Under the pieces are notes generated by a model, which saw only the letters and a list, made by a program, of their open reading frames with translations, made no database searches and was not told where the DNA came from. A DNA stretch of 32,041 nt from Alphaproteobacteria bacterium. Its GTDB lineage: Bacteria > Pseudomonadota > Alphaproteobacteria > Micavibrionales > CSBR16-224. The DNA lies in the NCBI GenBank assembly GCA_021775895.1, contig JAJFGX010000111.1:1-32041 (forward strand). The letters run 5' to 3'. A program made the position numbers and the translations under genes. Below are positions 17,127-21,664 of the stretch, piece after piece (the stretch's first letter is position 1; each line of letters starts with the position of its first letter).

Positions 17127-18065
17127 TTATATCTTTGGTCTTTTTGCACTAGGTTGCCTAGATTTAGTGGCTTCTATCAACTGTTCTGGATTTTTATGAT
17201 CCATATGCTTAGCCATAGGTTCAGGAGCTTTCGCAAACTTACTAGTTACACTACCTACAACATTATCAACAGCTTTCATTATACTGTTTCCAATACTAGC
17301 TAAAGTAATTTCTTGAGATTCAGGTATCCTATCTTTAGGGATTATAATCTTATGTGTACCAAGTTCTATGCCCTCAATCCGCTTTAAAGAAATAGTGTCA
17401 TCTATCCCAAGGTCTGCAAGATTGCTACGGCTATAAGTATCTGGAACTGTGATAACCAAGCTACCATCATCATCGTACTGAAGACCTTTAACATTGCCCA
17501 TTCCAAGAGTGGTTTGTATTTCTGCAAACTCCATACGGTTATTTAAACTTCCTTGAGTTGAAACAGGTTCTTGTTGTGATGGTTCTTGTATATCTACTTT
17601 ATTGCCTGAATTATTCATATCTACAACGCCATTTCTTACACTAACCTGATTATCTTTTCCATTTTCAAGACGCATTAATGCAGCAACAGGCTTGCCTTCA
17701 CTACCATATGCAATAGACTCTCCTTCCATAGTGCTAGCTATATCTTCCAAAGATTTTCCTTGCCTCAATCCTTGCACTAAAATTTTTGACTGTTGCTCTA
17801 TATTATAGCCTTGAATAGGGTCTTGTGGTGTACCATCAGAATTCCATGTTCCAGTTCCACTTCCCCATCCTCTTTCTTTATCCAGAAATAAATTCTCATT
17901 TCCTCCGATAGCATAAACTTCCCAACCCTGCTCCATCAATTCATTAACAGTTTTTTTACTACCACCAACTTGGCTTGTTTCACCAAGCCTATAAGGATCA
18001 ACTGTCCAATTTCCAACGTCAGACTGAACTATATATGCGGATTCACAACCTGACTTCCTTGAAAA
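17127..18065 (-). pseudogene. C-terminal part of a frameshifted hypothetical gene
   Basis: The ORF track starts this at a TTG (17939, 270 aa), but protein-like sequence continues upstream in the same frame to a TGA at 18066-18068: ESAYIVQSDVGNWTV, then DPYRLGETSQVGGSKKTV, running into NELMEQGWEVYAIGG. No start codon with a ribosome site fits that extension, and the upstream 75-aa ORF ends just here in the other frame, so the two are best read as one gene of about 375 aa broken by a 1-nt shift. The visible protein is soluble and Gly/Ser/Asn-rich, with LVQGLRQGKSLEDIASTMEGE, a beta-rich middle (DGSLVITVPDTYSRSN, IELGTHKIIIPKDRIPE) and a basic tail. I do not recognise a family. It abuts ftsK tail to tail. 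Confidence 0.55.
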
Positions 18066-18256
18066 TCAGAGCTACCGCTTACATTTCCAGCAGAACTAGG
18101 TGTAACATCAGAAATACCAGATAGTGTATGTATATTTCCTGTTTTAGGATTGACCATAACAACAAAACCTGTTCCTGACCCTAGACTAGAAGTATCAATT
18201 TCCATTCCTGAGCTTTTAATTAAAATACTATCTCCAGTAATGCTGTTATCTGACAT
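18029..18256 (-). pseudogene. N-terminal part of the same frameshifted hypothetical gene (75 aa)
   Basis: A good start: AAGGGGA lies about 5 nt before the ATG. The protein is Ser/Gly/Thr-rich without a signal peptide (SDNSITGDSILIKSSG, then GSGTGFVVMVNPKTGN), and stops at TAG 18029-18031 after FQGSQVVNPHI. The -1 frame is open from 18065 onwards, so a 1-nt deletion (or frameshifting, or a sequencing error) anywhere in 18032-18065 would join it to the 17127-18065 ORF. It follows prfB on the same strand after about 126 nt; no strong promoter was seen between them. Confidence 0.55.
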
Positions 18257-19566: not shown

Positions 19567-20421
19567 ATGATAAATCATCACGTAAATATTCAAAATAAAA
19601 TCATTATTGGTAACGATTTACCTTTTGTTTTACTTGCAGGGCCTTGTGCAATGGAAAGCCGTGAGCATGCCTTAGAAATGTCATCTGCATTAAAAGAAAT
19701 AACAGATAACCTTAATATCCCATTTGTCTATAAGACTTCTTTTGATAAGGCAAATCGCACGTCGATTAGTTCTGGTCGTGGTATTGGCATTGAAAAAGCC
19801 TTGCCTGTATTGGCAGAAATTAAAGAAAATTTAGGTTGCCCAATTGTCACAGACATACATACGCCAGAGCAGTGTGTTAGAGCTGCGGAAGTCGCTGACA
19901 TATTGCAAATACCTGCATTTCTATGTCGTCAAACTGATTTATTAGTTGCCGCCGCAAAAACAGGCAAAGTTATTAATGTAAAAAAAGGACAATTCTTATC
20001 GCCTAATGACATGATTAATGTTGCAAATAAAGTAACTGAAAGCGGTAATAGCAATGTAATGCTTTGTGAGCGTGGCACTAGCTTTGGCTACAATACATTA
20101 GTTAATGATATGCGTGCGTTACCAATTATGGCAGCAACTGGTCACCCAGTGGTTTTTGATGCTACACATTCAGTCCAACAACCCGGTGGCGCTGGTAATA
20201 CGACTAGTGGCGACCGTAGTTTCGTTCCACCATTGGCGAGAGCAGCAATAGCAGTTGGTGTTGCATCAATATTTATTGAAACTCATGAAGACCCAGATAA
20301 TGCAACCTCAGATGGCCCTAATATGATGTATTTACATGATATGCCTGCTCTTTTAGCTCAGTTAAAAGAACTAGATCAAATGATTAAGCCACAAACATAT
20401 AAACAAGCAGAAGCAGCTTAG
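19567..20421 (+). CDS. kdsA: 3-deoxy-8-phosphooctulonate (Kdo-8-P) synthase
   Basis: Condenses arabinose-5-phosphate with phosphoenolpyruvate to Kdo-8-phosphate, the first committed step to Kdo of LPS. The protein is 284 aa, exactly the family size. Motifs: [17 protein letters not shown] (res 20-36), [67 protein letters not shown] and [11 protein letters not shown]. It starts 74 bp from the divergent prfB. Its stop overlaps the stop of the last small-family gene by 4 bp. Confidence 0.97.
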
Positions 20422-20615
20422 TTGTTATTTGATGCACCTTTCATCCCAACGTAGCGAGTTGACATTTTTCCTGCATTCTTTTCATCTTGTGCATCAATAG
20501 CATCAAGTCTGGCATAAGCTGTTGCTGTAGCAGCTCTAGTTGAGCGATCAGCATAATAATCATTAAAGTCACTAGCTAATTTTGCTTTCATCATTTCTCT
20601 AATTTCTTTTGACAT
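20418..20615 (-). CDS. Small-family protein A (65 aa), conserved C-terminal tail
   Basis: The second ATG (20615) is preferred because GGAGA then lies 7 nt upstream; the ORF-track ATG (20621) is only 1 nt after it. The N-terminus [18 protein letters not shown] matches those of genes C and D. An Ala/Asp-rich helix follows, and the tail is [16 protein letters not shown], the family tail with substitutions. The nucleotide sequence of the tail differs from B and C at synonymous sites as well, so here the peptide itself has been conserved. There is no signal peptide or TM. Not recognised. It is the last gene of a four-gene same-strand array. Confidence 0.7.
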
Positions 20616-20631
20616 TTTCATTCTCCTTTAT

Positions 20632-20871
20632 TTAGTACTTATTACTATTTGAAGCACCTTTTATCCCAATATGACGAGACGACATGTTATTTTTTCTTTT
20701 CTCATCTTCCTCAATCTCTCTCTGTAGTCTCATAGTCTCTACAAGAGATAAGGCAACATTTGCTTTAGCATTAGTAGCATCATAACCATTACCATTACCA
20801 GATAAACTATTAAAATCATTTTCTAATTCAACCTTTAATCTATCTAATAATTCTTTATCTTTTTCTAACAT
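20632..20871 (-). CDS. Small-family protein B (79 aa), conserved C-terminal tail
   Basis: Start at the second ATG (20871) with AAAGGAT 7 nt upstream. The N-terminal helix MLEKDKELLDRLKVELENDFN resembles the family pattern (acidic/basic, xxLxxxFN). A Gly/Asn-rich loop (GNGNGYDATN) follows, then a charged helix, then NMSSRHIGIKGASNSNKY. The last 50 bp of coding sequence are nearly identical to gene C. It is 16 nt upstream of A in the transcript. Function unknown. Confidence 0.7.
   Translation of the reverse strand: MLEKDKELLDRLKVELENDFNSLSGNGNGYDATNAKANVALSLVETMRLQREIEEDEKRKNNMSSRHIGIKGASNSNKY
20636..20688. repeat. Copy 1 of a 53-bp direct repeat (tail of gene B)
   Basis: 52 of 53 bases match 20888-20940. 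The single difference (C versus G at position 45) is synonymous (Ser). The repeat covers the last 16 codons and the stop region of small gene B. Confidence 0.9.
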
Positions 20872-20886
20872 TTTCATTATCCTTTA

Positions 20887-21108
20887 TTACTTATTACTAT
20901 TTGAAGCACCTTTTATCCCAATATGACGAGAGGACATGTTGCCATTTCGTTTATTACGTTCTTCCTCTTTTGCTTCAAACTTTTCTATCTCCATATATGC
21001 TAAAACAATATTAGATAGAGTTTGCTTCCCATCTGTACCATAAGTGCCTTGGGCATTAAAAGCAGTCTCTAGCTTTTTTTTCATCTTATCACGCATTTCT
21101 TGTGACAT
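20887..21108 (-). CDS. Small-family protein C (73 aa), conserved C-terminal tail
   Basis: GGAG lies 8 nt before the ATG. The N-terminus is MSQEMRDKMKKKLETAFN, a Gly-rich turn (GTYGTDGKQ) follows, then a helix ending in a strongly charged stretch (EKFEAKEEERNKRNGN), then MSSRHIGIKGASNSNK. It has no Cys, no TM and no signal peptide, and looks like a small helical soluble protein with a positively charged tail. Spacing to B is 15 nt. Unknown function. Confidence 0.7.
   Translation of the reverse strand: MSQEMRDKMKKKLETAFNAQGTYGTDGKQTLSNIVLAYMEIEKFEAKEEERNKRNGNMSSRHIGIKGASNSNK
20888..20940. repeat. Copy 2 of a 53-bp direct repeat (tail of gene C)
   Basis: The same unit as 20636-20688, offset by 252 bp. 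Upstream of the unit the two genes are hardly alike at base level. Confidence 0.9.
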
Positions 21109-21122
21109 TTTTATTGCTCCTT

Positions 21123-21377
21123 CTATCTATTATTAGCACTTGTTTTTAAACAATGAGTTGTATTTGCTGTCTCAATAACAGACTTTTCTCCTGATTGTAC
21201 ATCTAAAGCATCAAGCTCAGCATATTGATGTATAATTGCCAACATATCACTATATGTATTCATGCTAAGGACATGATCTTCTCTAATAATTTTGCGAACA
21301 CCGTTTACATACTCCTTTTGCTCGTTAAACATAACCATAAGCTCTGCTTTCATTTCTTCTCTATCTTCTTTTGACAT
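21123..21377 (-). CDS. Small-family protein D (84 aa), divergent tail
   Basis: First gene of the array behind its promoter; GGAGA lies 7 nt before the ATG. The N-terminus MSKEDREEMKAELMVMFN is clearly that of A and C, but the end is HCLKTSANNR rather than SSRHIGIKGASN, so the tail has diverged or was never present. The middle is longer and amphipathic (EYVNGVRKIIREDHVL). It may be the oldest or a different-role member. Unknown function. Confidence 0.65.
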   Translation of the reverse strand: MSKEDREEMKAELMVMFNEQKEYVNGVRKIIREDHVLSMNTYSDMLAIIHQYAELDALDVQSGEKSVIETANTTHCLKTSANNR

Positions 21378-21443: not shown

Positions 21444-21472
21444 AACATATCACAACTTTATATTTATGTCAA
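21444..21472 (-). promoter_or_regulatory. Strong promoter for the small-gene array
   Basis: On the minus strand TTGACA (21467-21472), a 17-bp spacer ending TGA (extended -10), and TATGTT (21444-21449). The leader before gene D is about 60 nt and A+T-rich. Confidence 0.65.
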
Positions 21473-21492
21473 CATAAATATGTAATTATTTT

Positions 21493-21501: not shown

Positions 21502-21535
21502 GATAGTATTAAAAAATTGAAATATAGTGAGCCAC

Positions 21536-21664
21536 TTGACCAAATATTGGATTAATCCTACACCAATAAAAAAAGTGCCAGATAAAAAAACCAGAGCAAA
21601 AAAAATCGCTGACTTCAGACGCTTTGCCAAAGCACGCAACAAAGCGACTGGGTCAAGGCTCTAA
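21536..21664 (+). CDS. Small very basic ORF, 42 aa (too short for the ORF track)
   Basis: TTG at 21536 (or GTG at 21527, 45 aa) to TAA 21662-21664. The peptide contains KYWINPTPIKKVPDKKTRAK, then KIADFRRFAKARNKATGSRL, with about 17 Lys/Arg in 42 residues. It fills the gap between the small-gene array and the convergent GNAT gene, and its stop overlaps the GNAT stop by 4 bp (CTAA), the same junction style as other convergent genes in the window. Against it: an A+T-rich stretch can produce Lys codons by chance, the start codon is weak, and no clear ribosome site is present. Possible nucleic-acid-binding or ribosome-associated peptide; function unknown. Confidence 0.4.
   Translation: MTKYWINPTPIKKVPDKKTRAKKIADFRRFAKARNKATGSRL

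Follow-up and report, generated by a model that had tools for sequence, protein, structure and literature searches.

Tandem arrays of small proteins with predicted helical hairpins and shared basic tails in one order of Alphaproteobacteria

A tandem array of four small genes

The window analyzed here, a 32,041-nucleotide stretch of an alphaproteobacterial contig, contains an array of four co-oriented genes for small proteins (20418-21377), located between kdsA and a GNAT gene (here and below, the names of protein-coding genes were assigned by reading of the sequence). The genes are separated by 14, 15 and 16 nt, from gene 1 to gene 4, and each is preceded by an AGGA/GGAG/AAGGAG ribosome-binding site; the open reading frames and ribosome sites agree with a previous sequence-only reading of this DNA, which had described four same-strand genes with ribosome sites. 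Alternative in-frame ATG codons located 6 nt upstream are possible starts for gene 3 (at 20877) and gene 4 (at 20621), and the downstream starts are favored because of the Shine-Dalgarno spacing. The stop codon of gene 4 overlaps that of the convergent kdsA gene (19567-20421).

Table 1. Coordinates of the array genes and of the candidate regulatory elements in the window
Feature	Position	Strand	Basis
Gene 1, 84 aa, first gene of the array	21123..21377	-	ORF
Gene 2, 73 aa	20887..21108	-	ORF and AlphaFold2 model
Gene 3, 79 aa, start MLEKDKE, tail SSRHIGIKGASNSNKY	20632..20871	-	ORF
Gene 4, 65 aa	20418..20615	-	ORF and AlphaFold2 model
Candidate promoter TTGACA-17-TATGTT, 5' of gene 1	21444..21472	-	consensus scan, 10/12 matches
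Perfect 9-bp inverted repeat ATATTTATG-TTGA-CATAAATAT over the -35 box, candidate operator	21460..21481	undefined	sequence

All four proteins share the motif KxxLxxxFN in the first helix (KAELMVMFN in gene 1), which is the common core of the N-terminal signature; the form MS(K/Q)E, originally attributed to the whole set, is present in genes 1, 2 and 4, whereas gene 3 begins with MLEKDKELLDRLKVELENDFN. The tail (S/T)R(H/Y)(I/V)G(I/M)KGASN terminates the products of genes 2, 3 and 4, as had been noticed, and a diverged form, THCLKTSANNR, is found in gene 1, which also has the longest loop. The description of the middle parts as unrelated in sequence holds for the loop but not for the second helix, which is weakly conserved and Ala-rich (e.g. 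AYAELDALDAQ). Over the tail and beyond the stop codon, the DNA of gene 2 is almost the same as that of gene 3, with a single synonymous difference in 14 codons, suggestive of recent copying. In contrast, gene 4 displays no such identity, and its tail differs from those of genes 2 and 3 by 5 synonymous and 5 nonsynonymous changes, the latter mostly conservative.

Upstream of gene 1, where one strong promoter had been proposed, the sequence contains a plausible promoter with a TG before the -10 box, but a scan of the region detected 7 promoter-like sites against 6.4 expected by chance. The inverted repeat has no second site in the genome at 3 or fewer mismatches. A 45-aa basic ORF (21527-21664, plus strand), which we take to resemble DUF4169-type small proteins, is divergent from the array. 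Elsewhere in the window, two adjacent Gly/Ser-rich ORFs of 270 and 75 aa with no obvious relative (17127-18256, minus strand) adjoin prfB.

Distribution of the family and genomic context

The earlier surmise that the four genes form a real set is upheld by profile searches: a profile of the four genes matched one further copy, the fifth, elsewhere in this genome (E=5.7e-6) along with relatives in other genomes. The fifth copy (G000:C129:144-368; L006, L061) has no KGASN tail. It lies at the start of contig C129, just after the apparent end of an IS1595-type transposase gene, and is followed by one gene and then by a prpB-like one. When profiles were searched repeatedly against 142 genomes of the order, the number of carriers rose from 17 to 22 and then to 23, the last figure, obtained with the final hairpin profile, covering 12 of 54 genera. 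Gene 1 matches the family profile by construction (E=9.3e-35) and the order-wide hairpin profile with E=2.2e-9. The family members usually form tandem arrays of 2-5 genes that differ in copy number, and conserved ends flanking a variable center, first described for the four genes, are a pattern of the family as a whole. Shine-Dalgarno-like sites precede 44 of the 59 family genes, compared to a background of 6%.

Searched against approximately 380 other genomes of the class, outside the order, the final hairpin profile yielded no match at E<=0.001, indicating that the family is, as far as sampled, restricted to the order. With an earlier profile, five weak matches were obtained outside the order (best E=2e-4), three of them within frames of more than 500 aa; we judge all five to be due to chance. 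A GTDB scan with the tail profile returned no relative, and one with FtsA gave a single distant Rhodospirillales MAG at 43%; the 16S rRNA of one relative shares about 86% identity with that of Azospirillum, in keeping with a place in the Alphaproteobacteria. No consistent family match was detected in Pfam, NCBIfam, PHROGs or PADLOC: the PHROGs matches were scattered, each involving at most 2 of 47 members, and the toxin-antitoxin and defense profiles gave no consistent PADLOC match. A profile search of the PDB returned nothing below 0.18, and a Foldseek comparison with the PDB nothing below E=3.6. An origin from phages, plasmids or viruses was rejected, as searches of phages, plasmids and viral contigs gave no homologue. 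A literature search found no description of the family, which appears to be undescribed in the libraries and literature searched, in line with the initial impression that it matches no described family. Lineage-restricted paralogues in tandem are in themselves a familiar arrangement; an order-wide family of small proteins that is missing from every library searched constitutes an annotation gap.

The genomic locations of the arrays vary. Those of G003, G020, G029 and G049 are flanked by mvaB on one side and the 16S rRNA gene on the other, and those of G042 and G054 lie beside 16S; other sites are after rplQ in G004 and after gatB in G017, whereas the G014 locus adjoins rpsL and rpmA, and the G060 locus adjoins rpsB. 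In G001, a genome of the same genus as the one studied here, cysS follows kdsA with no family array, and the profile search did not find the family in that genome. Because the sites differ and G001 lacks the family, the array is accessory and has changed its location, and its absence from G001 implies that the family is not essential to the lineage. The arrays directly upstream of 16S rRNA genes (L045, L046, L050, L056, L059, L060) come from two bacterial families, and many of these array contigs end there because the 16S rRNA gene adjoins. As a separate observation, a relative, G007 (L014), has an apparent DotL-type coupling protein, and a Dot/Icm-like system may exist in the order.

Predicted structure of the proteins

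AlphaFold2 models of the products of gene 2 (mean pLDDT 74, pTM 0.43) and gene 4 (mean pLDDT 76, pTM 0.53), which are monomers based on four sequences and of modest confidence, predict a first helix of some 16 residues, joined by a loop to a second one of about 30, and a disordered, low-confidence tail. In gene 2, the predicted helices span residues 3-19 and 25-56, and the disordered tail residues 57-73, ending with SSRHIGIKGASNSNK; in gene 4, the helices are at 3-17 and 24-50, followed by the tail. Only L13 and F17 are near-invariant among 47 members. The tails carry a mean net charge of +2.1 and are positive in 57 of 59 proteins, whereas the mean charge of the bodies is -2.6. Some relatives in G003, G060 and G126-G128 contain two hairpins per chain, including fused proteins of 138 aa in G003, 128 aa in G060 and 126 aa in G128, which suggests that single hairpins pair. 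In G126 (L057, 4024-5250), genes for double and single hairpins alternate, as though a two-gene unit had been duplicated.

Evolution of the tails and the bodies

For class A, B and C orthologues from three related genomes, dN/dS is 0.03-0.23, with dS saturated for some pairs, compared to 0.07 for the neighboring mvaB; this purifying selection indicates that the relatives of the array behave as real protein genes.

The tails follow the array. Across 12 representative arrays, the mean similarity of the last 14 residues is 0.425 within arrays versus 0.086 between arrays, and that of helix 1 is 0.409 versus 0.290 (p=0.0002 for each, by label shuffles), whereas the loop displays no such difference (0.056 within, 0.061 between). 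For example, NKLEKN is present in 4 of the 5 copies of G042, with NKLDKN in the remaining one; NGMKLPGK is found in 3 of 4 copies of G029 and LSGKGL in 2 of 3 of G003, and MRMAVK ends both single-hairpin proteins of G126 and is carried by these only. Tail sharing is weak within the arrays of G040, G002, G017 and G141. The sequence-only reading had staked the common tail on the existence of homologues in related genomes, and likely ones exist in another genus: the core R[HYR][IV]G.K of the window tail, a pattern picked after the match was noticed, is present in both copies of G004.

The bodies, by contrast, follow the paralogue class. In a tree of the bodies without tails, which is based on a short alignment and has many open forks, the proteins of genera g17 and g21 group by class rather than by genome (class A 99/95, class C 97/90). 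With classes assigned by us from the tree, proteins of the same class from different genomes have a body similarity of 0.46 and a tail similarity of 0.45 (15 pairs), whereas those of different classes from the same genome have 0.22 and 0.64, respectively (8 pairs). The proposal of interchangeable, cargo-like middles is not supported, since orthologues keep their loops and these mark out old paralogue classes. Such decoupling, with bodies sorted by class and tails by array, is unusual and predicts one tail-recognizing partner per genome.

Possible functions of the family

Our preferred reading, which we hold tentatively and at somewhat less than even probability, is that the acidic hairpins pair into four-helix bundles and share a basic docking tail for one lineage-specific partner. 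The proteins have no apparent signal peptide and are presumably cytosolic. Each would consist of an acidic hairpin, formed by helix 1 with its L13/F17 core, a variable loop and an Ala-rich helix 2, and of a basic disordered tail. The hairpins could associate as homo- or heterodimers to form the bundles, and the presumably co-transcribed paralogues would make up a group of related subunits or adaptors, in which the loop, specific to each paralogue, might supply its own contact. The common tail would act as a short linear motif through which all members dock on one partner; this partner and the motif would drift between lineages, such that the tails within one array change together. Speaking against this reading are the modest confidence of the models, the weak tail sharing in G040, G002, G017 and G141, the lack of the family in G001, and the chance that tails became alike in part through gene conversion instead of selection for one partner. 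It seems somewhat unlikely to us that the system is a new type of modular hub, in which hairpin adaptors with old, distinct bodies all dock on a single fast-changing partner through tails kept in step in each genome.

The strongest of the rival explanations, albeit an unlikely one, is that tandem duplication and gene conversion left the common tails as a by-product in a redundant family expanded for dosage, with a tail that lacks a common partner. The nearly identical DNA of genes 2 and 3 from the tail beyond the stop codon and the variable copy number of the tandem arrays speak for this possibility. However, gene 4 retains the tail peptide despite synonymous divergence, the tails are almost invariably basic on acidic bodies, and the tail motif recurs in G004; in two genera the tails agree within a genome although the body classes are old and distinct.

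Two further explanations attach a different role to the tail. Being basic and disordered, it could bind nucleic acid or the ribosome, with a role in translation or ribosome assembly, and the loci upstream of the 16S gene in six genomes (G003, G020, G029, G042, G049, G054) and by ribosomal protein genes in G004, G014 and G060 would fit such a role; we nevertheless consider it improbable, given that the adjacency was noticed post hoc, the rRNA site is probably a single inherited event, the window array and several others are located by kdsA and unrelated genes, respectively, and the family has no match to nucleic-acid-binding families. Very improbable, in our view, is export, with the tail as a C-terminal secretion signal and the body as a small effector. 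A C-terminal signal common to varied bodies would be compatible with export, and the basic tails resemble type IV secretion signals, but the orthologues are strongly conserved, no secretion genes were seen adjoining the arrays, and VirB/D4 type IV effectors were rejected since the VirB4 ATPase (PF03135) is absent from G000, the genome studied here, and from all but two (G029 and G141) of the 23 genomes that carry the family. The original suggestions that these peptides are secreted, phase-separating or nucleic-acid-binding found no support, and the shell of encapsulins was not found either (see below). The docking of paired hairpins on a common partner remains the reading that we favor.

Comparison with known systems

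Encapsulin cargo has a short helical body with a flexible C-terminal peptide. Such cargo, for instance the encapsulated ferritin EncFtn, is described as binding a common shell via a specific recognition sequence (PMC11202242). The array family is similar in its common, putative recognition peptide and in the combination of a helical body with a flexible C-terminal end, but its near-invariant positions are limited to L and F, and metal-binding residues are not conserved. A role as encapsulin cargo was rejected, the shell gene (PF04454) being detected in none of 55 genomes, this one included, in a search that was positive in 3 control genomes. The WXG100/ESAT-6-like proteins are helical hairpins of some 100 aa that lack a leader, have a C-terminal signal and are often encoded by paired genes. 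None of the 47 members has a WXG100 profile match in Pfam at E<=0.1, and the family is distinguished by conserved L/F residues in helix 1 instead of a WxG turn. Arrays of RiPP precursors consist of tandem small genes with a conserved N-terminus and a variable region. This reading was rejected: judged by eye, no modification enzymes are encoded beside the arrays inspected, the neighbors being kdsA, GNAT, ftsA, mvaB, rRNA, gatB and others, and, unlike RiPP precursors, the proteins of these arrays are conserved at both ends, around a variable center.
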